From positions 1 to 61,412 of the forward strand of contig CAIYHQ010000052.1 of NCBI GenBank assembly GCA_903926075.1: a stretch of DNA of 61,412 bases. Reading direction: 5' to 3'. The notes under the pieces are model-generated. The model was given only the letters and a program-made list of their open reading frames with translations, did not search any database and was not told the origin of the DNA. This document shows positions 2,543 to 17,533 of this stretch, in pieces. Both the position numbers and the translations under genes were made by a program. Position 1 is the stretch's first letter. The number at the start of each line of letters is the position of its first letter. Source of the DNA: an uncultured Methanomicrobiales archaeon (lineage in GTDB: Archaea; Halobacteriota; Methanomicrobia; Methanomicrobiales; Methanospirillaceae).

Positions 2543-3967
2543 ATGAAAAGAAATTCAATTTTGTTTTTAGTATGTTTTATATGCATGTTAATGGTTATCC
2601 CGGCAGTAGTTTCGGGAGCACCCCCGACACTGGTTGCGAACAACATAGGTAAAATCTCAGGATTAAATCTTACCTTGGCAACTCCAACGATGAAAATATT
2701 GAAGCCACAAACGATAACTGTGATATCAGATTGTCAAAAATGCAATAACAACTGTGATTTAAATGCCGTCAATTATTCCGCATATGCCGGTTGTAAAGAA
2801 TATTGCGAATTTGTCTACGGTACCTGCCAGAGCCTTCCGATAACTCCTGAAAATTGCATTCAATGCAACAATCAATGTAATGCACACTCAATGGTAGACA
2901 ATGACAGATTTGCTTTTGCTCAGTGTAGGGAGAAGTGTTCTGCAACTTTTGGAAGTGAATGTGGTACCAATAAATATTGGACACCTCTTACATGCCCTGA
3001 CTGCCAGAATAACTGTATTGGGTTAACAGGAAATGACGAGACTACATGTCTGCAGGACTGTGCAAATAAATTCGGGGACGCTAGTTGCAATATCAATTAT
3101 TTGAATTACACGATTGCCACAGTAACATCTAAATACACTGGAAAAACAATCAAGACTATTCCACAAATCACAAAAAAACAGTATCCAACCACACTTCCAA
3201 CGACGATAAGATTTAAACCACAAACGTTATCATTGCCAGTAGATTGTCAGGATTGTTATATTAAGTGCGATCGCGATCTCCTGCCTAATCAGTTGTATAG
3301 GACTTGCAGGCAATATTGCCTGGCACTCCATGGGACCTGCCTGAACCCCCCGGTAACACCTCTAAATTGTCTTCAATGCCAGGATCAGTGTTCTATGAAT
3401 TTAAGTGTAAAAAATGACAGAAATGCTTTTGTCCAGTGCAGAGAGAAATGCTCGGCATCTTATGGAAGTGAATGTGAGACCAATACATATTATTCACCGG
3501 TTTCATGCCCTGACTGCCAGAATATGTGCACTGGGTTAACTGGAAATGATAAAACAGTGTGTCTACAGAACTGTGTGAATAAATTTGGGGAAGCCAGTTG
3601 CAATATTTACACTATAGGTTACACTTTTGTCGCTGCTACTCCTGAATACCCTGATAAGACGATCCAGATTATTCCACAAATCACAAGTCAACAGTATCCA
3701 ACCCTTAATTTACCTGTTGACAGAATTATTGGAGATAATACGGGTGGGCGGACAGTCCAGAATCAGCCCGCTTCTACGCCAGTTTTACCAACAATTAACA
3801 GGGGTATATTCATTGGAGGTGGGGACCAGTTGAAACCTCAGACACAGATAGTCAGTAATTCAAATTTTGGGACAATCGGACGAGTGTTTATGTCAAACGT
3901 GAGTACTGGAAACGTGACCCGCAATGCTACATCTGTTGTTGTAAACACAACAATGACAAAGAAGTAA
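2543..3967 (+). CDS. Secreted cysteine-rich repeat protein
   Basis: A 474-residue protein with a signal peptide (basic start, hydrophobic residues 5-24, AxG-like cleavage near 26). The mature part has a tandem duplication, residues about 64-215 and 235-386. Each copy has three modules of the form C-x2-C-x3-C-x(10-15)-C-x3-C-x(6-8)-C. The modules fall at 64-95, 105-140, 151-182, 235-266, 276-311 and 322-353, giving 36 cysteines. The last 90 residues are Cys-free, Thr/Asn-rich and have N-glycosylation sequons. The cysteines could form disulfides or bind metal; I do not recognise a named family. The ATG is preceded by gagggaga (2531-2538). A T-rich stretch after the stop (about 3982-4010) may terminate transcription. 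Confidence 0.8.
   Translation: MKRNSILFLVCFICMLMVIPAVVSGAPPTLVANNIGKISGLNLTLATPTMKILKPQTITVISDCQKCNNNCDLNAVNYSAYAGCKEYCEFVYGTCQSLPITPENCIQCNNQCNAHSMVDNDRFAFAQCREKCSATFGSECGTNKYWTPLTCPDCQNNCIGLTGNDETTCLQDCANKFGDASCNINYLNYTIATVTSKYTGKTIKTIPQITKKQYPTTLPTTIRFKPQTLSLPVDCQDCYIKCDRDLLPNQLYRTCRQYCLALHGTCLNPPVTPLNCLQCQDQCSMNLSVKNDRNAFVQCREKCSASYGSECETNTYYSPVSCPDCQNMCTGLTGNDKTVCLQNCVNKFGEASCNIYTIGYTFVAATPEYPDKTIQIIPQITSQQYPTLNLPVDRIIGDNTGGRTVQNQPASTPVLPTINRGIFIGGGDQLKPQTQIVSNSNFGTIGRVFMSNVSTGNVTRNATSVVVNTTMTKK
2732..3700 (+). repeat. Tandem internal duplication of a hexacysteine-module triplet
   Basis: Unit 1 is about 2732-3187 and unit 2 about 3245-3700 inside the Cys-rich gene. They share long matching peptides such as CREKCSA, GSEC, CPDCQN, GLTGND, NKFG and ASCNI in the same order, as well as clear DNA similarity. 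The duplication has diverged most in the first module of each unit. Confidence 0.75.
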
Positions 3968-4098: not shown

Positions 4099-4578
4099 AT
4101 GAAAATTTGTTGTATATTTCATTCATATTCCGGGGTAACCCGTAACGTCTGCATAAAACTTAAGAACGAATCAGGTTCTGACCTATTCGAGGTTAAACCC
4201 CTGAACGAATACTCAAAACTGACTGCTTATACAAAGGGATGCTTACGAGCCAGAAAAGGAGAGAAAGACAGTATAGACCATGAGTCAATTGATATTTCGT
4301 CCTACGACCTTGTTATTATCGGGACACCCGTCTGGGCATGGAAAACAACGCCAGTTATTAACGCAGCTGTTAATGCATTAGAAGGAGGTGAAGGAAAAAA
4401 GGCAATAATATTTGCCACATGCGGAGGTCAACCCGGAGAGTCACTTAGAATACTTAAAAAAGCCGTCGAAGAAAAAGGGCTGACGGTTATTGGTGAAGTA
4501 ATGATGACAAAAAATGATATCAATGAAAAGACGGAACAACTGGTAAAATTAGTAAAAGATACGGCGAGTAATTTATAA
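4099..4578 (+). CDS. Small flavodoxin-like protein
   Basis: A 159-residue short-chain flavodoxin. The start MKICCIFHSYSGVTRNV carries the FMN phosphate-binding loop SYSGVTRN. The segments VIIGTPVWAWKTTPVI and ATCGGQPG match the flavin-ring loops of flavodoxin_1/4-like proteins. The frame is open from 3973, but the ATG at 4099 has a purine-rich site (gatagagg, 4083-4090) ahead of it and gives the family N-terminus, so I start there. It lies 28 bases before a PqqD-like gene and just upstream of a radical SAM gene. A role as electron donor for reducing the [4Fe-4S] cluster is plausible but inferred. A general redox role is equally compatible. Confidence 0.85.
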   Translation: MKICCIFHSYSGVTRNVCIKLKNESGSDLFEVKPLNEYSKLTAYTKGCLRARKGEKDSIDHESIDISSYDLVIIGTPVWAWKTTPVINAAVNALEGGEGKKAIIFATCGGQPGESLRILKKAVEEKGLTVIGEVMMTKNDINEKTEQLVKLVKDTASNL

Positions 4579-4606
4579 ATAAGAGACATATCTTTATAAG
4601 ATAGAG

Positions 4607-4939
4607 GTGAATGGCAGTCTTATAAACTATAATAAACCCATCCAAAACCCTTCTGTGTTCTCACGCCCTATCTTTGATGACAATATTCTTCTTGTAAACT
4701 GTGATACAGGCGCATCACTTGCACTCAATAGTACAGGGAAACTTATCTGGAGTTTGTTTGATGGCAAAAGGACTGAGATGGAGATAGTTGCAAAGGTTTG
4801 TGAGAACTTCAAAAATGTTCCGGATAATGTCTCTCTTGATGTTACTTCCCTGATCTCGGCACTTTCAGAACAAGGTTTTATCGGGTTTGAGATAGATGCA
4901 GATTCCCTGGAAAATGGGAGGCTGAATTATCACGGATAG
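4607..4939 (+). CDS. Stand-alone PqqD-like (RRE) domain protein, copy 1
   Basis: A 110-residue PqqD-family protein. The family signature is visible as D-G-A-S-x-A-L-N-x-T-G-K-x-I-W about residues 33-48, then an acidic helix and a C-terminal two-helix part ending in GFIGFEID. PqqD-like domains bind the leader peptide of ribosomally made, modified peptides and present it to the modifying enzyme. Start is GTG at 4607; the site ahead of it is weak. It is closely related to the protein at 6404-6700 on the other strand (both have NPSV then FDDN then LVN-DTG-SL-LN). The precursor-like peptide begins 68 bases downstream. Confidence 0.85.
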   Translation: MNGSLINYNKPIQNPSVFSRPIFDDNILLVNCDTGASLALNSTGKLIWSLFDGKRTEMEIVAKVCENFKNVPDNVSLDVTSLISALSEQGFIGFEIDADSLENGRLNYHG

Positions 4940-4972
4940 ATATGAAAGTTTGATAGACAGGGATATATTTCG

Positions 4973-5007
4973 AAATGCTTTTATTTGAATGAGATATATA
5001 TACATTT
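4973..5007 (+). promoter_or_regulatory. 5' flank of precursor peptide 1, shared with precursor 2
   Basis: The 30 bases between an aaatg word (4973-4977) and the ATG match 17 of 30 aligned positions in front of the second peptide (8795-8829), at identical spacing. The word cttttattt (4978-4986) sits about 26 bases before the ATG and could be a TATA element of a leaderless mRNA; no clear ribosome site is present. The conservation may simply reflect gene duplication. Confidence 0.35.
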
Positions 5008-5130
5008 ATGTCTGAAAAAAAAGATGTTTTGCCTGAATACCAGCCACCACAAGTTATGAAGATTAATGACCTGAACAACGGAAGTGGTTTTCAACCTTGT
5101 GGAAACGGTTCTGGAGAGCACACAACTTGA
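5008..5130 (+). CDS. Candidate RiPP precursor peptide 1
   Basis: A 40-residue peptide that begins with MSEKKDVLPEYQPP. Its leader KDVLPEYQPPQV-x-KI-x-DLN-x-GSG (residues 5-27) is shared almost exactly with the peptide at 8830-8961. After GSG at 25-27, the core is FQPCGNGSGEHTT, with one Cys at 31. Both peptides keep C-[GN]-N-G-S in the core although the rest differs. A conserved leader with a variable Cys-containing core, between PqqD-like genes and a radical SAM/SPASM gene, is the classic layout of a RiPP precursor. The leader Tyr-x-Pro-Pro-x-Val-x-x-Ile-x-x-Leu resembles leaders read by PqqD domains. The modification is unknown. The protein would be easy to miss because of its length. Confidence 0.75.
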   Translation: MSEKKDVLPEYQPPQVMKINDLNNGSGFQPCGNGSGEHTT

Positions 5131-5135
5131 TTACC

Positions 5136-5157
5136 ACCCATCTATAACGATGTGGGT
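5136..5157. other. Small hairpin between converging precursor and radical SAM genes
   Basis: Acccatc (5136-5142) pairs with gatgtgggt (5149-5157) around a 6-base loop, with a small bulge. It sits just after the stop of precursor 1 and 106 bases beyond the stop of the convergent radical SAM gene. No T-run follows on either side, so a terminator role is uncertain. Confidence 0.25.
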
Positions 5158-5262
5158 CCGATCACCACCAAATCATCATGCAACCTTTTTTGTTTTTCAA
5201 TAATAACCATTTTTGGTCTTGGGTATCTCAATAAAATTGAATCATTAATATTTTCAAATTCA

Positions 5263-6417
5263 CTATCGGAGCCTGTTCTTCGGAAATACTCCCTTATTAA
5301 AAGCCTCATTACATAGTCTCTGAGGAGAGACGAGGGCCCCTCCATTAACATAGTTGTCAGCTACACAACCAGTCCGGCAGGACTGTGCATGGATACATGA
5401 GCCACAAATTCCAGGATATTCTTTAATATTTGCTAGATCTGAACGCAACTTTAGGAGAACAGGGTGAGAAATCCATATATCCCTGATACTGTCTTTTCCA
5501 AGAAGTCCGTAAACCAGTTCTGAAATCGTCTCACCTATGCCACAGAGAGCTACTTCGCCTGTTCCCAGAATTCCAAGTATACTACTGACACCACAATCGC
5601 ATACTTTTCCTTTTGTCCTCCACAGCTCTTTATATGGCGTAAGAGCCATGGGCAAAGTTAAAATTAGCGGAATTGGAGATATTGGCCTGAGCTTATCATT
5701 GACATATGAGCCAAGTGCAAGATACCCTTCAAGGTCAAACGTCTCTCCATTCTCATACATATTAAGACCCCTGCCGGCAGCAGTAACCGGATTAAACTTA
5801 ACGGAAGCAGCATTGTGTTCAGCTGCGAGCATGACAAGTTCTTTCATTCGCCCCATATTTCCCAGGTGAACAGACATGATGACCTGACAGTTGGTATATC
5901 CAGCATCAACAATTGAATCAAGTCCGGAAATAGTTCTGTGAAAGGCACCCTTTACCCCGCGAAAAGCATCATGCTCAGCAGCAATAGGAGAATCGAGGCT
6001 CACCGATATGAAACCCATCTTCGTCTTTTCTTTAAGATAACGGGCAATATCTGGTGTAATGAGTGTCCCATTTGTCTCCATAGAAAGAAAAAGCCCTTCG
6101 GAAGATAACATATCAACGACTTTCAGGAACTGATGATGGAGCATTGGCTCACCACCGGTTAATTTAATTGTGCAAAGACCAAGTGACTTCGCTTCGATGA
6201 CTGCTTTATGTAGAGCATCAGGATCAACAGTTGTACCAGAAACCGCTTTCTCTTTTCCTGAAAATTTTGGGTTAACCCAACAATGCCTACAACGAAGATT
6301 ACAACTTGATGAGAGGTAAACATATAAGGATTTTAATGGTGGGACCCCTTCAGGCAGATTAAGGTCATTTGTCATTACAGAACCAGAATCAGGATAAGGT
6401 AGATCACAAAGTGTCAA
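5263..6417 (-). CDS. Radical SAM/SPASM peptide-modifying enzyme
   Basis: A 384-residue protein with the radical SAM cluster motif C39-x3-C43-x2-C46 (SCNLRCRHC) and the SAM-binding GGEP at 88-91. The C-terminal SPASM region has C273/C275, G-x4-C292, then C338-x2-C341-x5-C347-x3-C351 and C369, enough for two auxiliary [4Fe-4S] clusters. Such enzymes make thioether or C-C crosslinks or epimerise residues in peptides. TTG at 6417 has agaggg about 6 bases ahead and overlaps the PqqD-like gene by 14 bases, so the two are probably co-translated. ATG at 6375 is the alternative. The nearest substrates are the two small peptides at 5008 and 8830. Which bond it makes cannot be read from the sequence. 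Confidence 0.9.
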   Translation of the reverse strand: MTLCDLPYPDSGSVMTNDLNLPEGVPPLKSLYVYLSSSCNLRCRHCWVNPKFSGKEKAVSGTTVDPDALHKAVIEAKSLGLCTIKLTGGEPMLHHQFLKVVDMLSSEGLFLSMETNGTLITPDIARYLKEKTKMGFISVSLDSPIAAEHDAFRGVKGAFHRTISGLDSIVDAGYTNCQVIMSVHLGNMGRMKELVMLAAEHNAASVKFNPVTAAGRGLNMYENGETFDLEGYLALGSYVNDKLRPISPIPLILTLPMALTPYKELWRTKGKVCDCGVSSILGILGTGEVALCGIGETISELVYGLLGKDSIRDIWISHPVLLKLRSDLANIKEYPGICGSCIHAQSCRTGCVADNYVNGGALVSPQRLCNEAFNKGVFPKNRLR

Positions 6418-6700
6418 TAAAACCCTCTGCTGAAAGTGTTAAAATCACTGAATTAACATCTTGTGCAACCGAATCCGGTACGTTCTTAAATTCTTTGCAG
6501 ACCTGCGCGACTATCTCTTCTTGTGTTAATTTGCCATCTAACAAGTTCCAGATAACCTTTCCTGATTTATTCAGTACGAGAGATTTACCAGTATCTCCGT
6601 TTACGAGCACTAGATTGTCATCAAAGGTTAGATGTGACATTACAGAAGGGTTTTTATTAAATTTTTCATGTGACCTGATTTCATAATTCACGGATATCAC
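6404..6700 (-). CDS. Stand-alone PqqD-like (RRE) domain protein, copy 2
   Basis: A 98-residue PqqD-family protein with the signature D-T-G-K-S-L-V-L-N-K-S-G-K-V-I-W and a C-terminal helical part ending ILTLSAEGFIDTL. It is translated just ahead of the radical SAM gene and overlaps it by 14 bases, so it is the most likely leader-binding partner of that enzyme. Start is GTG at 6700; a second in-frame GTG lies 9 bases later. It is a close paralogue of copy 1 at 4607-4939 in inverted orientation; the pair flanks the first precursor and the radical SAM gene. Confidence 0.87.
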   Translation of the reverse strand: MISVNYEIRSHEKFNKNPSVMSHLTFDDNLVLVNGDTGKSLVLNKSGKVIWNLLDGKLTQEEIVAQVCKEFKNVPDSVAQDVNSVILTLSAEGFIDTL

Positions 6701-6766
6701 TTTAATGTACAGCTGTCATTTATATGAAGTACTTATCTTTCCAGAGGACGACCTGTTCTGCAATAT

Positions 6767-8605
6767 ATGGGAAATTCACCACATTCAGAATTTAATCTCC
6801 ATGAGATGCTGACATCTTCAAAAGCCGAAATTCCACGGGCAATAAGACTAGTCTTTAAATTCACGCCCGGGTGGACAATTGCAAACATCTTTCTTATGAT
6901 AATTCTCGGTCTTTTACCACTCGCATCCCTGTATATAACCAAACTCCTTGTTGATACGGTTACTGCCGGAATCACTGCCAGTGATAAAACAGCTGTTTCA
7001 ACAGAACTTTTTATTGTTATCATTGCAGCAGTGGTTATATCGCTTCTCACTGCTTGCTTTAGAGCAATTTCTACTTATGTGACTGAAGTCCAGTCTCTTG
7101 AGATGACAGATGGGATCTCTGATCTCATTCATAGCCAGTCTATCGCACTTGATCTCGCGTACTATGAAAACCCAGAATATCAGGATACCTTACACAGGGC
7201 TCAGACTGAAGGAGCCTCCCGACCGGGAAAGATAGTAAATGATCTGGTGCTGATTATTCAAAATTGCATCTCTATCATTGCTGTTGGATCTCTCATCCTT
7301 TCATTCTCAGCCCTTGCAGGTATTATTCTCATCGCATCTGCGGTTCCAGCCATGATTGTCAGGTTATGGTATTCAAGGCAACTATATTTTCTAAAACAAG
7401 ATCAAACTGAATTGAACCGTAAAAGTTTTTATTATCACATCATGCTCACGCATTCACATTATGCCAAAGAGAACCGACTTTTTTCCCTCGGAACATTCTT
7501 CAGAGAGTTGTACAACAGCACTCAGGATTTAATCAGGATCTCAAAATTAGCAATTTCCCGGTCAAAAGCATTTTGGGAGGTAATTACTCAGGGTTTTGTT
7601 ACTGCTGCAGTGTTTGGTTCATTTACTGTCATCGCAATTATGACACTTAATGGAAAGATAACCCTGGGTGACATGGTAATTTACTTTATGGGTTTTCAGA
7701 TGTGTGTAGGGTACATTCAGACTATATTTTCAAGTCTTAATACGCTCTATGAGGACCATCTTTTTTTAAGGGATTTTTTCAAGTTTCTTGATATAAGACC
7801 ATTAATTAGAGCACCCGATAACCCAATACCACTCCCTGAAGACTCGATAGAGAAAATTCAATTAAATTCTATTTGTTTCACTTATCCAGGAGCACATACC
7901 CCGGCATTGGAGGACATTTCAATTACCATCAGGAAAGGGGAAGTAATTGCTTTTGTAGGCGAAAATGGTGCTGGAAAAAGCACTCTTATTAAATTGCTGT
8001 GTAGACTTTATCTTCCTGATTCCGGGTCTATTACAGTTGATAATATAGATCTTAACTACATTGATCCAGAAATATGGAGACGGCGGCTATCAGTACTTTT
8101 TCAGGATTATATTCGGTACCAACTGACCATAGAAGATAATATCAGGGTAGGGGATATCGGGCGTCCGGATGGTCCGGAAAACGTTGAAAAATCTGCTCAT
8201 AAATCAGGAGCAGACAAAACAGTGGAACGACTTCCAAACGGTTACCAGACGGTGTTAGGGAAATTTTTTAGTGGGGGTCATGATATAAGCACTGGTGAAT
8301 GGCAAAAAATTGCATTATCCCGGGCTTTTTTCAGGGATGCTGAATTTATTTTTCTCGATGAACCTGCAAGTTCGCTTGATGCTCTTGCCGAAGCAGAGAT
8401 TTTTCAAAAGTTCAGGGAGGTTATTCAGAATAAAACCGCTATTATTATCAGTCACCGCTTTTCTACCGTTCAAATGGCAGATCGAATCTATGTTATCGAA
8501 TACGGAAAACTGATTGAATTTGGCTCACATACTGATCTCATGATATTAAACGGACGATACGCTGAAATGTTTAAAATTCAATCTGATCCATATATTGAAA
8601 AATAA
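6767..8605 (+). CDS. ABC exporter, fused membrane and ATPase domains
   Basis: A 612-residue half-transporter. The N-terminal part has about six membrane helices (about residues 40-320). The ATPase part has Walker A GENGAGKST near 398-406, Q-loop FQDY, signature STGEWQK in place of LSGGQ near 508, Walker B FIFLDEP near 530 and the H-loop SHR. There is no C39 peptidase domain at the N-terminus. It would work as a homodimer in the cell membrane. It diverges from the PqqD/radical SAM pair with a 66-base gap and lies ahead of the second precursor, so export of the modified peptide is the obvious guess. The Ser-Thr-Gly signature is a known variation in peptide/lipid exporters but deviates from the consensus. 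Confidence 0.92.
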   Translation: MGNSPHSEFNLHEMLTSSKAEIPRAIRLVFKFTPGWTIANIFLMIILGLLPLASLYITKLLVDTVTAGITASDKTAVSTELFIVIIAAVVISLLTACFRAISTYVTEVQSLEMTDGISDLIHSQSIALDLAYYENPEYQDTLHRAQTEGASRPGKIVNDLVLIIQNCISIIAVGSLILSFSALAGIILIASAVPAMIVRLWYSRQLYFLKQDQTELNRKSFYYHIMLTHSHYAKENRLFSLGTFFRELYNSTQDLIRISKLAISRSKAFWEVITQGFVTAAVFGSFTVIAIMTLNGKITLGDMVIYFMGFQMCVGYIQTIFSSLNTLYEDHLFLRDFFKFLDIRPLIRAPDNPIPLPEDSIEKIQLNSICFTYPGAHTPALEDISITIRKGEVIAFVGENGAGKSTLIKLLCRLYLPDSGSITVDNIDLNYIDPEIWRRRLSVLFQDYIRYQLTIEDNIRVGDIGRPDGPENVEKSAHKSGADKTVERLPNGYQTVLGKFFSGGHDISTGEWQKIALSRAFFRDAEFIFLDEPASSLDALAEAEIFQKFREVIQNKTAIIISHRFSTVQMADRIYVIEYGKLIEFGSHTDLMILNGRYAEMFKIQSDPYIEK

Positions 8606-8645
8606 ATTCCATATGTTATTGGTTAAGGAATGGCATTGATGACAA

Positions 8646-8672
8646 GCAAATTATATAGACTTTATAATTTGC
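8646..8672. repeat. Perfect 10-bp inverted repeat, 7-base loop
   Basis: Gcaaattata (8646-8655) is perfectly complementary to tataatttgc (8663-8672). It lies 40 bases after the ABC exporter stop and about 158 bases before the start of precursor 2. It could be a weak A/T-rich terminator hairpin, or a dyad operator. The region 8606-8829 otherwise holds no credible gene apart from a possible GTG extension of the peptide (from 8752). Confidence 0.5.
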
Positions 8673-8794
8673 GGGTGCATAAGGAAAATTGGATAGTATA
8701 CAGCAGTTTTTATGATAATTTCAACAATGAAGCACTTAAATTTGTTTACATGTGTTTGGACGGGATAAATGTTTGGCAGAACTGAATTGTTGCA

Positions 8795-8829
8795 AAATGT
8801 TTATCCGTGAGTGCGGTATACAGATACAT
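8795..8829 (+). promoter_or_regulatory. 5' flank of precursor peptide 2, shared with precursor 1
   Basis: The word aaatg at 8795-8799 is followed by 30 bases to the ATG, the same spacing as before precursor 1 (4973-5007), with 17 of 30 matching positions. The segment tgtttat (8798-8804) is a possible TATA element. This shared flank supports choosing the ATG at 8830 over upstream GTG 8752. Confidence 0.35.
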
Positions 8830-8961
8830 ATGCCTATCGATAAAGATGTTTTACCTGAATATCAACCCCCACAAGTCACGAAGATTTATGACCTGAACAA
8901 GGGGAGCGGCGGGAGTATTGGTACTGAGTGTAATAACGGTTCTAATGACGTTAAAAGCTAA
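8830..8961 (+). CDS. Candidate RiPP precursor peptide 2
   Basis: A 43-residue peptide. Residues 5-16 (KDVLPEYQPPQV) are identical to precursor 1, followed by KI-x-DLN-x-GSG at the same positions. The core GSIGTECNNGSNDVKS has one Cys at 34 and keeps the C-x-N-G-S word of the first peptide. The frame is open from a GTG at 8752, which would add a Cys-rich N-terminal extension; alignment with precursor 1 favours the ATG at 8830. It lies between the ABC exporter and the third PqqD-like gene. Two precursors with a shared leader and different cores suggest one enzyme acting on several products. Confidence 0.75.
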   Translation: MPIDKDVLPEYQPPQVTKIYDLNKGSGGSIGTECNNGSNDVKS

Positions 8962-9067
8962 TCTTAAGACGGGATCAACGCTACCATCAATTCTGGTAAT
9001 ACAGTGATACAACAATTATAGGTGTATTATAGATGAATCACAAAAAATTTTTATTTTTTAGACGTCC

Positions 9068-9346
9068 ATGATCTCAGGTCGGGTTATTGTTAATCCTGAT
9101 ATATCATGCAGAGTCGAGTCTGATGACTATGCTCTCTTATTCAACCCTGACACCGATAATACAGTACTCATTGACCATTCAGGACTTTTAATCTGGAGAT
9201 TCATTGATGAGCCTAGGAGCATCAATGATATTATATCATATTTGAAGGGCTGTTTTTCAAACTGTCCTGACATTGATACCCTTGAGCAGGATATTATCAA
9301 ATATCTTAGTGACCTTATTCCTGAATTTGTTCTAGAGATCTTCTGA
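9068..9346 (+). CDS. Stand-alone PqqD-like (RRE) domain protein, copy 3
   Basis: A 92-residue PqqD-family protein with LLFNPDTDNTVLIDHSGLLIW as the signature region and a helical C-terminal half containing two Cys (CFSNC). It is more distant from the other two copies than they are from each other. Its stop overlaps the start of the kinase/peptidase fusion (the ATG at 9346 lies in the TGATG junction), so the two are translationally coupled. That suggests it delivers the leader to the fusion protein rather than to the radical SAM enzyme. No ribosome site precedes the ATG; an A/T-rich stretch about 20-25 bases upstream fits a leaderless mRNA. Confidence 0.82.
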   Translation: MISGRVIVNPDISCRVESDDYALLFNPDTDNTVLIDHSGLLIWRFIDEPRSINDIISYLKGCFSNCPDIDTLEQDIIKYLSDLIPEFVLEIF

Positions 9347-10893
9347 TGCAAAAAAATGTAATTTTTTCCTCACCCTTTTTCAGCCTTGGATTTGCAGACG
9401 GTCAGAAATTTATTCTTCATCCAACCGACAACCAGGCTGCAGAAATAGTCAACATGATGTCAGATGTGATGCATCTCTCACCAGGGACTGTCGGGCGGGA
9501 GATCTTTGTTTGTGTATCTGATAAAAAAGAGTTTCAGATTAACAACCTTAAAAATGGCGGGCCTTTGGTTTGCTGCCTCCTTCCAGGGACAAACCCAAAT
9601 ATTAGAGAAATTCAGATGTCCGAACTCGCAAGGTACATAGCTGCACAGATGATACCCGGCGGAGGTATGCTTATCCATGGTGGGCTTATAAGGCATGGGG
9701 GACAGGGATTTATTCTTGCTGCTCCGGGAGGGACAGGAAAAACAACCGCATGCAATCGGCTTCCAGAATCATGGGATGCATTGAGTGATGATGCTACCAT
9801 GGTCGTACAGACAGATGAGGGTAGATATCTTGCTCATCCATGGCCCACATGGAGCCGTTTTCTCGATGGTGGTTCGGGTGGAGACTGGAATGTTGAAGAG
9901 GCAGTGCCCCTCTCATCCATATTTTTCTTACAGCGTTCAGAAATTGATAATGTTGAGCCACTATCAAAGGTAAATGCAACTGCATTTCTCATGGAGTCAA
10001 TACGACAGGTTATGTTAACTCCAAGGATTGGAAAACTGCATTCTGATAGTATTGAAGCTATCCTGAAAATGAGTTTCCCTCATATAGAAAGACTAATACT
10101 GTCGATACCAGTCCAGATTCTTCAGATAAGTTTATCTGGGAATTATTGGGAAGGGATTTTTCAGAGTCTTAAAAAAACAGAAGTTCCAAAACATCCTGCT
10201 CCTTTATTTTCACAGATTAAGCATATAGATAAAAATAGTAACATATTTAATGACCAGAGCATTCCGGTTATTTATTCAGGCCCAAGCATGAATCCTTCCT
10301 TTTTGGATTCTGATCTTTTAGAGGTGGTTCCATATGGAAGGAGACCATTTAAGGTTGGAGATGTAATCTACTTTTTCTCTCCTGTCAAAGAGACCCATAT
10401 AATCCATAGAATTGTTAGCATATCTGAAAACGGAGTTCAGACACGAGGGGACAATAACCCTGCTCCTGACCCTGAACTTGTATTGCCAGGTGAAATTATA
10501 GGAAGAGTAATAGCGGTATCAAGAACATCCGGAACATGGAAAGTAACAGGTGGAACAAGCGGGAGGATTCTTCAGGCGTTTCTTCTGGCCCGGAAGTCAA
10601 TACTCGCTAAAATAGATTATATCATATTGAGTAAAAATCCAGTCGGAGTTTTTGTGCACATCATCAGATGTTGCTTCGCATATATAATGAGACCTAGATA
10701 TGTACTATTTTCTACACGATATTCATTTTTCTTAAAATTATACATAGGTAATCGTTTGATTGGAGATTACAATACCATTAGGATGACCTGGATGATCAGA
10801 TCACCATTCTCTCTTTTCATAGATAGAACTCAACTGCCCACATTAAAACCTCCTCTTCCGAAAATTAGATTTTTAAGGGAACTGGGTCATTAA
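9346..10893 (+). CDS. HPr kinase-like domain fused to an S26-type peptidase
   Basis: A 515-residue two-domain protein. Residues about 1-275 resemble HPr kinase-like proteins of RiPP loci: a Walker A loop APGGTGKTT at 126-134 (Lys132), then ALSDDATMV with the usual acidic pair. Residues about 305-400 look like an S26 signal-peptidase core: SGPSMNP with Ser314, GDVIYF, then H354 in HIIHR and D369 in RGDNN. That is the Ser/His/Asp set of archaeal/ER signal peptidases, without the bacterial Lys. There is no obvious membrane anchor in front of the peptidase. The C-terminal 115 residues are unassigned. Neighbours imply action on the precursor, for example phosphorylation or leader removal. The first half recalls ScmC of the cassette named SynChlorMet; that is from memory. 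Confidence 0.8.
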   Translation: MQKNVIFSSPFFSLGFADGQKFILHPTDNQAAEIVNMMSDVMHLSPGTVGREIFVCVSDKKEFQINNLKNGGPLVCCLLPGTNPNIREIQMSELARYIAAQMIPGGGMLIHGGLIRHGGQGFILAAPGGTGKTTACNRLPESWDALSDDATMVVQTDEGRYLAHPWPTWSRFLDGGSGGDWNVEEAVPLSSIFFLQRSEIDNVEPLSKVNATAFLMESIRQVMLTPRIGKLHSDSIEAILKMSFPHIERLILSIPVQILQISLSGNYWEGIFQSLKKTEVPKHPAPLFSQIKHIDKNSNIFNDQSIPVIYSGPSMNPSFLDSDLLEVVPYGRRPFKVGDVIYFFSPVKETHIIHRIVSISENGVQTRGDNNPAPDPELVLPGEIIGRVIAVSRTSGTWKVTGGTSGRILQAFLLARKSILAKIDYIILSKNPVGVFVHIIRCCFAYIMRPRYVLFSTRYSFFLKLYIGNRLIGDYNTIRMTWMIRSPFSLFIDRTQLPTLKPPLPKIRFLRELGH

Positions 10894-10955
10894 TATCACT
10901 ATTTTAAACGATTTACTCAGATATCAGGTTAAAAAAGACCCATTGGTATCCTGAC

Positions 10956-12188
10956 TCAAAGGTAATCAATAAAACTCCACCAGCGCCGGATATGGGCAAG
11001 GTAAGGATCCCAACTGCTTTCTGAACGTCGATATTCGATCATCAGATGCGAAGGAGGCAGGATAAAACGCCCACAATATTTCAGTTTCTCTACAAATCCG
11101 GGCAACCTTTTCAAACGGAGATGGAATACTGCGAGAAATGAGGTCTCCTGAATTGCAGCATACTTCCACATTCGTTCTTCCCATTCTGATGGAGAAGGCC
11201 ATGTCGAGAAATCGGAAAATTTTGAAGGTAAAGTATTTCCAGACCAGAGAATAGCTTCTTTGAGAGCAATCTCAACAGGAATTCGGGTATGATGTGTAAC
11301 TGAAGATCTTTCGAGGGATTTCCAGTCGTCATTTATAGTGAAATCCCGTATCAATCGTGAAATATCCACTATCCAGTCCAGTCGCCGGTGGTTATGAAGT
11401 ATAACATTGTGGAACACCAGGAACTGGAGATGATCTTCGGGATGCAGGGTATCAAAGATAAGATCTTTGGATTGGACATGAATTTTTCTTTTCAGGGAAT
11501 TATCTAACCAGTTTTCTGGAAAATATCCAAAGCCAAAGTCTGCCATCCAGTGAATTTCAACCATTACTCCGATTTTTTCAGGTAAAAATGCCTGGTGGTG
11601 GAACGCATAGCGGGAAATGTGGTATGTAAGGGCAGTACTGGAATACCCGAGTGTTCCCATCACCTTTTCACAATGTAAAAAATCATCTGGTCTAATTAGA
11701 AGATCGATATCAGTCGACTGGCGCATTGCCAGGTCAGGGTATATCGTTCTTCCAAGAGCTGGACCTTTGACCAGCAGAACTGGAATTCCTGCTTCCTGAA
11801 ACTTCAATAGGATCTGGCGAATCTGATCTCCCATAAAAATGTTTCGGGCTGTACCTGCAAAGAGGGCATTTTTAAAAACAGACAGGGTTTTTTCAGGTGG
11901 CTGGAACTCTTTATGCCATGACAAAATATGCGAAGCTATGAAGGGAATTATCAAATGCGAACCAATAATTTTGATAAAATCATCCCATTCTTCAGGTCCG
12001 CACATCGGAGGCGTACAGGGAATATCTCTTATCGCACCGATCAAGTAAATAATGAGATCGTCACGGATTGAAAAAAGTGCATTGGGTGGATTTCCCATTA
12101 GTGGGTAATTTGCATGCCATTTTTGAATAAAGGCAGGTAATGTGGTGAGATCATCAGGCTGCGCATGTGATTCAAAAACAGTTTTCAT
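10956..12188 (-). CDS. PF14907-type nucleotidyltransferase-fold protein
   Basis: A 410-residue protein of the NTP_transf_5 family. The core LLVKGPALGRTIYPDLAMRQSTDIDLLIRPDDF carries the D-x-D pair (DID) expected for nucleotidyltransferase metal binding and the K-G upstream of it. Members are common beside PqqD-like and HPr-kinase-like genes in lasso-peptide and other RiPP loci and in polysaccharide loci, with unproven substrates. It converges on the fusion gene and is transcribed from the tRNA side. The region between the stops (10894-10955) has no further gene. It may add a nucleotide to the peptide or to a sugar; this is inference. Confidence 0.85.
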   Translation of the reverse strand: MKTVFESHAQPDDLTTLPAFIQKWHANYPLMGNPPNALFSIRDDLIIYLIGAIRDIPCTPPMCGPEEWDDFIKIIGSHLIIPFIASHILSWHKEFQPPEKTLSVFKNALFAGTARNIFMGDQIRQILLKFQEAGIPVLLVKGPALGRTIYPDLAMRQSTDIDLLIRPDDFLHCEKVMGTLGYSSTALTYHISRYAFHHQAFLPEKIGVMVEIHWMADFGFGYFPENWLDNSLKRKIHVQSKDLIFDTLHPEDHLQFLVFHNVILHNHRRLDWIVDISRLIRDFTINDDWKSLERSSVTHHTRIPVEIALKEAILWSGNTLPSKFSDFSTWPSPSEWEERMWKYAAIQETSFLAVFHLRLKRLPGFVEKLKYCGRFILPPSHLMIEYRRSESSWDPYLAHIRRWWSFIDYL

Positions 12189-12195
12189 TTAAATA

Positions 12196-12211
12196 CCAAA
12201 AATAAAAAAAA
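12196..12211 (-). terminator. T-rich terminator after tRNA-Leu
   Basis: On the minus strand the tRNA is followed at once by a T-rich tract (cattttttttattttt), typical of archaeal T-run termination. It also forms the leader of the nucleotidyltransferase gene starting at 12188. Confidence 0.5.
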
Positions 12212-12294
12212 TGCGAGGGAAGGGATTCGAACCCTTGAACTCCTGCGAGAACCGCTCTTGAGGCGGTCACCTTTGGCCTCTTGGTTACCCTCGC
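12212..12294 (-). tRNA. tRNA-Leu (anticodon CAA)
   Basis: An 83-nt tRNA on the minus strand. The acceptor stem gcgaggg pairs with ccctcgc, followed by discriminator A. The anticodon arm ccgc-ctcaaga-gcgg gives anticodon CAA for UUG. A long variable arm (class II) and the T-arm with ttcgaat are present. CCA is not encoded. No intron is seen. It borders the RiPP-like region. Confidence 0.93.
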
Positions 12295-12388
12295 AAAAGA
12301 GAGAGGCATGAAAAGGTGGTTAACCCGCAAAGTACCTTACACCTTCTCTTTTCTCTTCCACTTAATCTCTCGCATCATTATCAGTTAA

Positions 12389-13555
12389 TCATTTTTGTCC
12401 GGCTATTTCAGATAAGGTATCAGCAAAGATCTGTACCTCTTCAACATCATTATAACATCCGACAGATGCCCTTACTGTCCCGGTATTCGAGAGCGAGCGT
12501 GCAAGTGGCTCCGCACAGTGCATCCCACTTCTTACACATATCTTTGCACGGTCATCAAGTTCGCGGGCAAGCGCATTGGGAAGCCATCCTTCAAGATTAA
12601 AAGAAACAACCGGACTGCCTTTTGGGCTGTAAACGGTCACTCTCTCAATCCCTGATATCAGGTCCCACATCTTTTTCCCAAGATTTAGCTCATGTGAGTG
12701 AATCAGTGGAACAGTAAGCTCATTTACAAGTTCAATTGCACGGCCAAGTCCGATAACTCCTGGTATATTCGGAGTCCCGGGTTCATACTTCGCAGGGGGT
12801 GGCAGGAGGTCTACTTCTTCAAGAGTGACTTTCTCAACCATTCCACCACCATGGAGTGAACATGAAAGGCTCTCATTATCTTTCATATAAAGTGCCCCGG
12901 TCCCTTGTGGCCCTAAAAGACCTTTATGGCCCGGTATTGCAAGATAGTCAATAAATGAGGTTTTAATTGGGATATGCCCTACTGCCTGTGCTCCATCAGA
13001 TATGAAAGGAATACCTGCATCATGAGCTATCTTTGCTATAGCCTCAATAGGCTGAATTGTCCCAAGTATATTTGGCATCCAGGTAACAGCGACAATTTTC
13101 GTCTTCTTTGTTATCAGTTCGGCCACACTTTCAGGGGTTATGTAACCTTCTTTGTGAGGGGCAACCTTTACCTTGACACCCTGGTTCCGAAGAGCCATCC
13201 AGGGGAGCATATTTGAATGATGATCAAGCACTGTAGTTATAACTTCATCGCCTTTTTTCCAACAAAGGCCCCTCGCGACCATGTTTATTGCTTCTGTTGT
13301 ATTCCTTGTAAAAACAAGGTTCTCTCTAGGAACTTCGAGAAACTTCCCCAGGAGATCCCTAGTCTCTTCATACTTTTCTGTAGTCCTGCGTGCAAGGTGA
13401 TGGGCACCTCTACCGTGGTTTGCGGCGTATTCATAAAAATACTCTACCATCGCTTCAACGGAACGTTTTGGGGTCTGAGATGTGGACGCACTGTCCAGAT
13501 AGACACATTTTCCAAGTATTGGAAATTCAGCCCGCAATTTTTTAAGATCATACAT
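12389..13555 (-). CDS. SufS-like cysteine desulfurase (class V aminotransferase)
   Basis: A 388-residue PLP enzyme. The PLP lysine is K211 in IPGHKGLLGPQGTG. The catalytic Cys347 sits in RSGMHCAEP, the SufS/CsdA form. It would release sulfane sulfur from cysteine for Fe-S clusters or thio-modification. Some archaeal homologues have other cysteine or selenocysteine lyase roles. There is no SufE/SufBC next to it. It starts 48 bases after the polymerase gene stop on the same strand. A run cgagggaga lies 10 to 15 bases ahead of the ATG. A possible hairpin (aaggtg...cacctt, about 12315-12346) follows downstream of the stop, before the tRNA. Confidence 0.9.
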   Translation of the reverse strand: MYDLKKLRAEFPILGKCVYLDSASTSQTPKRSVEAMVEYFYEYAANHGRGAHHLARRTTEKYEETRDLLGKFLEVPRENLVFTRNTTEAINMVARGLCWKKGDEVITTVLDHHSNMLPWMALRNQGVKVKVAPHKEGYITPESVAELITKKTKIVAVTWMPNILGTIQPIEAIAKIAHDAGIPFISDGAQAVGHIPIKTSFIDYLAIPGHKGLLGPQGTGALYMKDNESLSCSLHGGGMVEKVTLEEVDLLPPPAKYEPGTPNIPGVIGLGRAIELVNELTVPLIHSHELNLGKKMWDLISGIERVTVYSPKGSPVVSFNLEGWLPNALARELDDRAKICVRSGMHCAEPLARSLSNTGTVRASVGCYNDVEEVQIFADTLSEIAGQK

Positions 13556-13603: not shown

Positions 13604-16600
13604 CTACATAAAATCTGCGAGTCCCAGCTGTTGTTCCTTTGGTTGCCCAAAGGTAGATTCAATAGCGAGAAGTATCACTTCAACCCTTTGTTTCGTATAG
13701 AGCGAAACCTTGTATTTTGTACAGATATCGCGTGACATCTCAAGATATTTTTTAACCGACCCTTCATGTACAGTAGGTATGATATTTCCGTTGCATTTTG
13801 AACATTTTCCTGCAAGAGGGACCCTCCTGTAACTTGTGTTACATTTAGAACAGCGAAACTTCTGCTTTGAGAATGCTGAAAGGTTGCCCATAAGATCGCG
13901 GATAAAATGCGTGTTAAGAACTCTTTCTGCAACATCATCTACATCTACAGCCCGGATTTTCTCGGCAAGCGAAAGCTCAGCCTCAAGTTTCTCAAGCATT
14001 GACTCCATCTGGGTATACATCGATTCTTTTGGACCGAGCGAAATATCTGACGTCTCATGAGTATACGAGAAACCTTCAACGGACTCCGGTTTACCAAGCC
14101 TGTGATCAACACGATCAATCAGAGCCTCAACATCTTTTGGATGGGCGTAAAGAAGGGCTTTTTTGTAAAGTTCAAGTGGGTAAAACCTGCATACATCAAT
14201 ATTATGGCTCTCTTTGTCGATCTCTTTTGGATCTATACGGGTTGTGAGCACAAGGGGAGCATCCATAAGCCCGCCACGCGTTTCAGGCAGAAATGCCCTT
14301 GAGAAGTTAAGGAGCCCGTCGAGGAGCAGCATAATACAGTCCTCGTCGCCGTCACACTGGCCGGTAAATACCCCGTTAGCAAGAACTGTATGTTCTTCTG
14401 CAACAGTCAGGCAAAACACCCTCTCCTCTGTTGCCGGTACTATTTCTCTCTTTTTTATACGATCAGAGATTACTGCATTTCCCACAAAAACCGGAACTGA
14501 ATCCCCTTCATTCACTTCGATTGCCCGGACTTTCCTAAGGTAACTGAGATCCCACACAAGCATGGCATGGTCAGGTGTGACAATAAGCACATTCCCCCTG
14601 CCGGTCTCAAACCTGTACAGTCCTTCCGGTGCTTTATGTACTGAAACCGAGGTTATTCGCCTGATATGCACAATACCGCCGGTATCGACTGTCCGGGTAT
14701 AGTATGGACGGACCGGGTCTGAATAATATGTACCGAGCCGGTCTAACCCGGGCCTCGCAAGATCAAAGTTCTCAAGCACGAACCTGCGGATCTGGATTTT
14801 TTTCCAGACAGAACCATCATAGACTTCAATTTCGGTATCTCCAAAAAAACAGTTCCTTCGTTTTGCAGCATGAAAGAAAGGGTGGGCATAACCGACGTTA
14901 GCAGTACAAAAACCGATAATACGTGATAAAACTCCTGCACTTGTATGTGGTGCAAGACCTATTACAAGGTGTCCAAGGAGGTCATCGCGGTTTTCCACGT
15001 TGTAAAATGGAGGGAGAGAGTAGACCTTTTCCAGAAGTTCATCAATAAAGTGGGCTACCTGAATCAGGTACTCGGCACAGTGATCCGAGAGAAGGATATC
15101 CTGTGTCCTAAGTTCAAGGACCTGGTCTTCATGTGTAAGTGGGACACCATCTGTATCCACCTCATATCCAAGGTTCAACAAGGTTTCTACCCGGACTCCC
15201 GTCTCTTTTGGAGTGAAATGTGTAAGAGGCAGATCGATCATATCATATCTGACAGTTCCATCTTTAAAGACATAGACCTCATGCTTTGCCCTTAAAATTC
15301 CTTTGCTGATATCCTCAACAGCCTTTTCACGAGAAGTAAGACCTTTAACACCCTTTACGAGCGGTACCATCTCCTCTCTGAACCCAAGTTTTTCCATTAT
15401 AGAGAGATATTCAGATTTAAGGTTGAAGATTAGGTTCTGACTTGAAGAGAGAGGAATTCCACACAGATCACAAGTTTCACCTCTCCCTTCCCTGCCACAC
15501 TTCTGGCAGCTGAAAACAGGGTCAGTATGAGAATTACAATCACACAGATTTCTGAATGTAATTTTTCCGCATGAAGGACACCTCCTGCGTCCTGTCTGGA
15601 TGGTAAGAGTGCCTCCGTCTTTCAAAACATTAGTGGTGAAGGTCTTTGCCTCCTGAAATGATCTCCTCGAACCTCCTGCTTCACCAAGTGGAAAGAGGAC
15701 ATGTGGTGGAGGGTTCATCTTTCGTGGCCTGGATTTTCCAGGTCTCCCCATTCTTCCGCCAATCCTGGTCCCTGATTTTGAACGGAGTTTTATTCCTGAA
15801 AGTTCAGTGATATAGAGTAGAGGATCAGATTCACTTGTAGGGGGGAGGGATCTTCTTTGATTTAAATTTCCATTAAGACCAAGACACTCAAGAAATACAA
15901 TATAATTACTTATACAGATCTTGTCTACTGAGATAGTATGAGGCAAAAGGATCTCTTCAATAATTTCCTTGATATCCCGTTCATAAGGGAGTATTAACGT
16001 ATTACCTTCCAATTTCCCTTTTTCTGAAACAAACGAGTGCAGGGACTGTATTTGCTCAATCGTTAGATCGTCCCAGAGATATGTATAGTCAGGGTGAAGA
16101 TAGCCACCATTTTTAGTAAGAGCGAGTGCAGCTTCTTCAGTTTCAGGCTGCTCACCTTCACACTCCTGACTCCACCATTCATGGCAGTATACAGAGGGTA
16201 CTAAAGGATGGTTATTCTCAAGAAATTCCCCAAAACTGATAAGTAATTCCCCTACATCAAGAATGCACTCAACATTACCGGAAATTTCCTTTGCAGACTT
16301 CGGGTCATCAACTCTCCTGACCTCTCCTCCCTTGAGCCTCACGGTGGGACCCTCAATAGAATCAACAGGAACTATCCCTGCTGCTTTTCCGGGCCTCTCT
16401 ATCTTCATCTGAGTCCCTACTGCAAGAAAGTCTCCAAGAATATGCATGGTTGCCGGGTTCAGCCCAGCTGCCGCATATCCTGTATTGCGTGACCGGCCAT
16501 ACCTGAGCCGGAAACCACCTTTTCTCATGGGATATGCAAAAACCGGCCTCCCACCGATGAGATCATCAAGGTACTTGTATTTCGGTTTGATTGAGACCTT

Positions 16601-17458
16601 CTCATCACTTCCGGCAGGCATTGCCCCTGCAACAAATGTGTCAAGCCAGTCCCAACCGTCGAGGCCAAGCTTTTTCACATGTTTCTGAACTTTTGGCGCT
16701 TTTAGTGCAATCCCTTCGCCTATTACGAGAGCCATTCCTCCCCTGATTGCATTTGTCTCTACCCTGGCAAGGTCCCGGTAACCACTGACCTCTGCCTTTT
16801 CAGTCCCTTCTCCATCTACACAGACCGGACAATTTCTTACAATCAGGCGGATTTCATCATCATTTGGGAGATACTGGAGTTTTGTTACGGTATTGTATTG
16901 TTTGATCTCCTCAATGTAACGCTCGACTTCTTCATCACGCGGTTTATATGCAGCAAGGCCAAGACCCCGGCGCACATAATCACCCACTAGCACTGACAGA
17001 GCCTGTGCAGTACCACCTGCACTCCGTATGGGTCCGGCATAAAAAATCTTCAGATATTCAGTCCCATCGTCATTTTTACCCAGGCTTACCTTTGCTATTC
17101 CTTCCGTCGGAGCTGCTACTACTCCTTCTGTCAGAATTGCCATTGCCGTCCTTATAGCATGGTCAAGGGTCTCAACTGTTGAGGTGCTCCCAAACCTCCT
17201 TGCAACAAAATCATCCCCTATCCGGAGTGCAACTTCTTCGCGGGAGATAGTTGCTTCAAGTTCCCTGATACGGGCCGATATACCTTTAATTCCAAGAAGT
17301 GCCTCAACTCTGTCTGCAAGGTCAGTCGCAACAGGTATTTCAACTTCCGTACGTGGGTCAAGTCCTCTGGACCGGGCTGATTTTGCAACAGAATACGCAG
17401 CATCCAACCCAATATTGAGTCTCTTCTGATACCCAACCATAGACTCTGACCAATCCAT
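13604..17458 (-). CDS. polC: DNA polymerase II (family D) large subunit DP2, with intein
   Basis: The catalytic subunit of the euryarchaeal replicative D-family polymerase, partner of DP1 encoded at 54102. The frame is open to 17506 (1300 residues), but the family N-terminus starts at the Met in [14 protein letters not shown], so I use ATG 17458 (1284 residues, 1119 without the intein). Visible signs: KFRCSKCN and CSKCN zinc pairs near the C-terminus, further zinc-finger pairs CPSCGK, CQKCGR and CDLCG mid-protein, and the conserved block [24 protein letters not shown], which is split by the intein at CDGDED. That block holds catalytic Asp residues. A HEAT-repeat gene lies just upstream and a cysteine desulfurase downstream, all on the same strand. 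Confidence 0.97.
14357..14851 (-). other. Pol-II mini-intein (165 residues)
   Basis: The intein runs from Cys1 (residue 870 from the 17458 start) in [13 protein letters not shown] to Gln165 in NGVFTGQ, followed by extein Cys of CDGDED. Block A (CFFGDTEI), block B with TPDHAML (T..H), and block F/G with [21 protein letters not shown] are all visible. There is no LAGLIDADG endonuclease. The last residue is Gln instead of Asn, as known for other Pol-II inteins. It interrupts an essential active-site block of DP2, so it must splice for the polymerase to function. Confidence 0.92.
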
Positions 17459-17533
17459 ACCTAGCCTTTCCTTCGGGAGGGAATTTATCTTTATGGAATA
17501 TCCCATACGCAGTACTTGACAGAAAAAAGTAGA

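Follow-up and report, generated by a model that had tools for sequence, protein, structure and literature searches.

Contig CAIYHQ010000052.1 of an uncultured Methanomicrobiales archaeon (61,412 nucleotides, taken at full length as the window; host assembly 3.14 Mb in 134 contigs, 97% complete) raises the question of what a methanogen makes with the peptide-modification genes at positions 4607-12188. In contig order, these genes and their immediate neighbours are a flavodoxin, PqqD1, the peptide gene pepA, a ScmF-like radical S-adenosylmethionine (SAM) enzyme, PqqD2, an ATP-binding cassette (ABC) exporter, the peptide gene pepB, PqqD3, a ScmC-S26 fusion, a PF14907 nucleotidyltransferase and tRNA-Leu. 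This is probably a cassette for a ribosomally synthesized and post-translationally modified peptide (RiPP), a divergent form of the Scm (SynChlorMet) cassettes with a single radical SAM enzyme, which would work like the linear polyphosphorylated peptide (LPP) systems of Bacillota with a radical SAM step added. An earlier note on this DNA had proposed a RiPP locus, and the peptides, the selection on their leaders and a conserved enzyme set support that proposal. The two leader-sharing peptides, three PqqD proteins, radical SAM/SPASM enzyme, ABC exporter and PF14907 protein that it listed lie where it had placed them, as judged by profile scores and coordinates; its kinase/peptidase fusion can be defined more closely as ScmC-S26, with TIGR04249 and TIGR02228 both above their cut-offs. 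All cassette genes are open, and their catalytic residues are intact.

The predicted precursors are MSEKKDVLPEYQPPQVMKINDLNNGSG/FQPCGNGSGEHTT from pepA (5008..5130, +) and MPIDKDVLPEYQPPQVTKIYDLNKGSG/GSIGTECNNGSNDVKS from pepB (8830..8961, +), where the slash marks the predicted cut; the family alignment supports both. They are 40 and 43 residues long, with near-identical leaders and cores (FQPCGNGSGEHTT and GSIGTECNNGSNDVKS) of 13 or 16 residues that hold one Cys each. Across 22 shared leader codons the two genes differ at nine third positions, one first position and one second position, corresponding to a nonsynonymous divergence (dN) of 0.06 and a synonymous divergence (dS) of 1.1. The leaders are under purifying selection at the protein level, and a dN this far below dS marks them as translated sequence under selection. 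A profile built from five precursors of the window type matched the 3.1-Mb genome at the pepA and pepB sites only (E 4e-15 and 9e-15); since both are among its rows, the search shows that there are no further sites and is not independent support. The start of pepB is most likely ATG 8830 rather than a codon farther upstream. None of the small peptides tested scored above the cut-off of an NCBIfam model.

Comparison with the neighbourhoods of relatives had been set beforehand as the test that could refute the proposal, and the relatives do carry peptides with a conserved motif for binding the RiPP recognition element (RRE), mostly with G-x-G, and with Cys-x-x-Gly units. The comparison covered archaeal Scm cassettes, with the phylum search run on a sample of 393 genomes and lineages of G-numbered genomes taken from kinship labels. 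Of 22 related stretches, in Methanomicrobiales and beyond, 18 have a small peptide of matching design close to ScmC or the genes around it; the other four are two at contig ends (L014, L066), one in a frame-broken genome (L067) and a 3.3-kb contig (L068). With few exceptions the leader reads Y-x-x-P-x-[VILM]-x-x-[ILMF], followed mostly by G-x-G and then the core. Gly, Ser, Thr, Ala and Asn abound in the family cores, which contain repeated Cys-x-x-Gly units; 122 of the 128 Cys in the first 23 precursors lie in C-x(2-4)-G, and the conserved residue near the core Cys is the Gly at +3. Relatives have 3-10 Cys units per core and up to six precursors per locus, whereas the window cores are reduced to a single unit, C-x-N-G-S.

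Of 23 Methanomicrobiales precursors, 22 have a G-x-G between the motif and the first Cys of the core, compared with a mean of 6.9 and a maximum of 15 in 2000 rounds of shuffled segments. Because the precursors are mutually related, this shows more than composition but does not count independent events. The spacing is also regular: counted from the aromatic residue, G-x-G falls at +16 or +17 in 20 of these 22. Four further precursors, belonging to other families within the phylum, bring the occurrence of G-x-G to 24 of 27. Two of the related loci, L032 (G031) and L063 (G219), hold arrays of about five to six precursors of ~136 residues with 9-10 Cys units. Several of these each precede a separate PqqD and a truncated ScmE start, an arrangement that looks like tandem duplication of a precursor-RRE pair.

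The candidate leader peptidase is the S26 half of the ScmC-S26 fusion (9346..10893, +), which joins an HprK-like kinase (TIGR04249, 143.9 bits, cut-off 125) to an archaeal-type signal peptidase (TIGR02228, 57.7 bits, cut-off 51.85). The S26 half spans residues 305-390 and carries S314, H354 and D369. This Ser/His/Asp triad is present in 16 of 16 aligned S26 proteins and is of the same kind as S29/H68/D93 of LppS. Signal peptidase I prefers small residues at -3 and -1, and we infer that the S26 half cuts after G-x-G. The aligned cassette S26 proteins show no segment resembling a transmembrane helix (Kyte-Doolittle maximum 1.52), as would be expected more of a leader peptidase in the cytosol than of a secretory enzyme. 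They end in an extension of ~110 residues (window 10516-10893) with W-x-I-R-x-P-[FY] near its end, which is absent from S26 proteins of the type on contig C33, discussed below. An AlphaFold model of the fusion from a single sequence was unusable (mean pLDDT 31).

The kinase half (residues 62-273) contains H111, K132, D148 and D149. The His, Lys and first Asp are invariant in ten aligned ScmC proteins and the second Asp is nearly so; this His-Lys-Asp-Asp set has been shown to be necessary in lasso-peptide kinases (PMC9266682). Next to the fusion lies the PF14907 nucleotidyltransferase (10956..12188, -; 149 bits, cut-off 31.2), a homologue of which adjoins the cassettes of G049, G194, G196, G146, G134, G135, G231, G248, G257 and G366. 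A C-terminal Ser or Thr as general kinase target, as in paeninodin, was considered and rejected, with precursors of G049, G134, G135, G005 and G146 ending in P, N, V or G.

Much of this set recurs in the LPP systems of Bacillota (Popov et al. 2026, PMC13381572), which comprise a precursor, an HprK kinase, a discrete RRE, an archaeal-type signal peptidase, an MsbA-like pump and a nucleoside triphosphate (NTP)-transferase. There, leader cleavage by the signal peptidase was shown to be RRE-dependent, and phosphorylation of core Ser3 was shown; multiple phosphates on a single core Ser are among the traits of LPPs. LPPs are called restricted to Bacillota, and the main text makes no mention of radical SAM (PMC13381572). 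The window likewise brings together discrete RREs, an HprK-like kinase, a signal peptidase I-like enzyme with the matching triad and an MsbA-like exporter. Its PF14907 protein is the candidate counterpart of the NTP-transferase LppN, for which the main text of PMC13381572 gives no Pfam accession. The LppA leader consensus, YxxPxVLxHQxIxFET/xxS, places the LppS cut at +15 (counted from PMC13381572). The window leaders keep YxxPxV only, with FET replaced by G-x-G, and the putative cut lies ~16 residues past the Tyr. The window differs further in being archaeal, in its added radical SAM/SPASM enzyme, its fused kinase and peptidase, the Cys units in its cores and the lack of a conserved Ser3. Judged from sequence, it probably holds the same six functions as an LPP system plus ScmF and is not an LPP by leader consensus. 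The earlier note had called the mixture of parts unusual; the parts are real, but the mixture is not unique, since without the radical SAM enzyme it probably equals the LPP gene set (PMC13381572).

The paeninodin and pseudomycoidin lasso loci (PMC9266682) share with the window an RRE with a YxxP-type leader, an H-K-D-D HprK-like kinase and a nucleotidyltransferase. An asparagine-synthetase-like cyclase and a transglutaminase-like B2 cysteine peptidase are not among the cassette proteins, which include the S26 peptidase and radical SAM enzyme instead; the shared protein types and these absences had been noted earlier.

The three discrete RREs all exceed the PF05402 cut-off of 23.4 bits. PqqD1 (4607..4939, +, GTG start; 49.6 bits) and PqqD2 (6404..6700, -; 52.3 bits) are 55% identical and form type 1. 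PqqD3 (9068..9346, +; 29.4 bits) is of type 2, which in relatives is the RRE preceding ScmE, and has 45% identity to the second RREs in L014 and L030. The window RRE profile, which supports the PqqD2 assignment, matches LppB (9x8z, 6e-10) and the lasso RRE TbiB1 (5v1u, 5e-11). PqqD2 overlaps the ScmF gene by 14 bases and PqqD3 overlaps ScmC by 1 base, so that an RRE is paired with an enzyme in each case. The overlaps, the gene order and the two RRE types would also suit two half-systems that share a leader, one LPP-like (PqqD3, ScmC-S26, the nucleotidyltransferase, the ABC exporter and pepB) and one built around radical SAM chemistry (PqqD1, PqqD2, ScmF and pepA). However, the pepA and pepB leaders are almost identical, so the same RREs should bind both, and in relatives both RREs and all enzymes serve one precursor type. 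We consider a division of this kind unlikely.

The ScmF-like maturase (5263..6417, -, TTG start uncertain) retains the CxxxCxxC of radical SAM enzymes and the cysteines of the SPASM domain. It is 65-66% identical to its counterpart in L014, a Methanoregula metagenome-assembled genome and the only radical SAM relative among the named-genome matches listed. Ranthipeptides and sactipeptides probably resemble the window in having a SPASM enzyme act on Cys-containing cores. The PapB/StsB-type ranthipeptide and sactipeptide models score ScmF far below every cut-off (PapB-family maturase 56.3 bits, cut-off 340), and the window differs in its discrete RREs, its S26 protease and the lack of a D/E acceptor pattern. 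Under the Cys-Xn-Asp/Glu motif definition of PMC9413430, a candidate Asp/Glu acceptor at +6 is present in both window cores and was rejected as a family trait, with D/E at +4 and +6 in 5.5% and 6.8% of cases against a background of 5.9%. A PapB-type bridge is thus not favoured for ScmF.

PqqD together with a SPASM enzyme is also the layout of the pyrroloquinoline quinone (PQQ) and mycofactocin pathways, and the window cores are very short, which could mean that the peptide is a scaffold from which the radical SAM enzyme and the protease excise a small redox cofactor, to be used in the cell or exported. The mycofactocin maturase model does register on ScmF at 95.8 bits, but this and the PQQ models are far under cut-off. 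Unlike a conserved cofactor core, those of the relatives differ widely in length and number. The cassettes have no dedicated redox enzyme as a conserved neighbour, and they include an exporter and a kinase. We regard a cofactor pathway as improbable.

The closest named family for the locus is Scm (NCBIfam models TIGR04248-TIGR04251). ScmC is above cut-off, as given above. ScmF scores 334.2 bits against the TIGR04251 cut-off of 400, with this its best model by more than 200 bits. For PqqD1, PqqD2 and PqqD3, ScmD (TIGR04248) is the best model at 56.7, 54.0 and 44.4 bits against a cut-off of 100. The precursors have Cys-x-x-Gly units and the leader type of cassettes that pass the ScmC or ScmF cut-offs (G248, G031). 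ScmE (TIGR04250) is absent genome-wide, where the best match, at 76.7 bits, belongs to another system and true homologues score 279-371. The window also departs from Scm in its ScmC-S26 fusion, its two RRE types in three copies and its one-Cys precursors. On this sequence evidence the most fitting description of the locus is a divergent Scm cassette with a single radical SAM enzyme, not a full SynChlorMet member but a variant that would work like both Scm and LPP systems. The likeness to SynChlorMet noted earlier stands for ScmC and for the best-scoring models; it does not extend to ScmE or to the cut-offs of ScmF and ScmD. In the literature covered, which lacked most subscription journals, neither SynChlorMet nor any of the four Scm accessions is named, and no paper combines HprK, radical SAM, signal peptidase and RiPP.

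Two subtypes can be distinguished among the relatives. Canonical-type cassettes (G248, G257, G446, G366, G049, G146, G134, G135, G031, G219 and others) have one RRE type, ScmE, ScmF and ScmC, and in most a separate S26 gene. The window type (the window, L014, G038, G196, G194, G011 and G181) has RRE types 1 and 2 and leaders that mostly end DLxxGxG; wherever its ScmC gene is complete, it is fused to S26. Exporters of this type are 50-78% identical to that of the window (6767..8605, +), an MsbA-like protein without a C39 peptidase domain that is 78% identical to the G038 exporter. Among window-type loci read far enough, the window alone has ScmF without ScmE, three RREs and one-Cys cores. G011 shows the reverse, with ScmE and no ScmF, and together the two indicate that the enzymes are separable.

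The lack of ScmE, the reduction to one Cys unit and a broken related set without radical SAM elsewhere in the genome (contig C64, L037) could instead mark a cassette on its way out, whose peptides make no product. Against this, the genes are open with catalytic residues intact, leader dN is far below dS, single-radical-SAM forms recur, as G011 shows, and an RRE gene has been gained, not lost. We give decay little credit. L037 itself (8872-12487 of the locus) contains a short PqqD, frame-broken exporter pieces, an intact S26 and a PF14907 protein, with no radical SAM enzyme or peptide seen, and is a remnant of a canonical-type Scm set.

Several observations weigh against a working Scm cassette of LPP-like design. 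The window ScmF and RREs fall under the curated Scm cut-offs, and with ScmE missing the product may differ from that of relatives. G-x-G fails in three of 27 precursors (G011, G248, G257). Unlike LPP, family cores have no Ser at a fixed position, which makes the kinase target a guess; a C-terminal Ser/Thr is found in the window, G011, G038, G196, G031 and others and is not general. For any Scm cassette, no product, transcript or activity is known.

From the parts, their conservation, the selection on the leaders, the intact catalytic residues and the G-x-G geometry, all observed, we infer each chemical step of the following scheme for the divergent Scm cassette. By homology, discrete RREs would recognise the leader through its YQPPQV motif and deliver the precursor to the enzymes. 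The ScmF-type SPASM enzyme would modify the single C-x-N-G-S unit, most likely to a Cys-derived thioether or similar cross-link. The kinase half would phosphorylate a core Ser or Thr, and a sugar or nucleotide may be attached there by the nucleotidyltransferase, in the way PsmN acts on pseudomycoidin; both of these steps take the LPP and pseudomycoidin precedents as their sole basis. The S26 half would then cut after G-S-G in the cytosol, freeing FQPCGNGSGEHTT and GSIGTECNNGSNDVKS, and the C39-less transporter would export the product.

That these steps define an archaeal RiPP class, in which radical SAM chemistry on Cys-x-x-Gly units is combined with phosphorylation by HprK, tailoring by the NTP-transferase and signal-peptidase-type removal of the leader, the kinase and protease being one fused protein, is quite possible, if short of probable. 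An LPP/phospho-lasso superfamily would then have the Scm cassettes as its radical SAM branch, and the window would encode a first methanogen product of this kind. The locus joins Scm and LPP, two peptide-making systems previously unconnected. SynChlorMet is thereby tied to LPP biosynthesis, where biochemistry has established the kinase, RRE and signal-peptidase steps, and this makes each step testable. The locus also suggests a leader peptidase for Scm cassettes, an S26 enzyme cutting after G-x-G, and offers a minimal substrate of 13 or 16 residues with one Cys for probing ScmF-type enzymes. According to a 2025 survey (PMC12144867), earlier work had yielded just two archaeal RiPP products with experimental validation, both of them lanthipeptides from haloarchaea; peptide products of methanogens are unexplored territory.

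Elsewhere in the same genome, at L027 (contig C33, 7104-13572 of the locus), lies another RiPP-like cassette of a different kind, with a PqqD, an S26 peptidase, a small peptide beginning MSELNKTWTEPLLTILTRHKPEEAVLTACK and three radical SAM proteins, one of them a 684-residue fusion with a weak ScmC/HprK-like match. Syntenic sets occur in G025 (L034), G015 (L035) and G028 (L036), with peptides of the form W-x-x-P-x-LTVLVR...CK. No specific NCBIfam model is above cut-off for the L027 cassette.

The flavodoxin named in the earlier note is present (4099-4578, +) but is not conserved beside any related cassette, and a role as dedicated reductant was rejected, with no homologue near other cassettes; it is best kept out of the cassette. 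Considered as a possible genomic-island signal, cassette genes have 37-43% G+C, trpB, sufS and polC 45-47% and the remainder of the window 42%; the cassette adjoins tRNA-Leu (12211-12295). Immediately upstream of the cassette, 2543-3967 (+) encodes a putative secreted protein with a duplicated Cys-rich region and repeated CxxC/CxxxC. On the far side, 13604-17506 (-) encodes what we take to be the DNA polymerase II large subunit, apparently with an in-frame intein inside.

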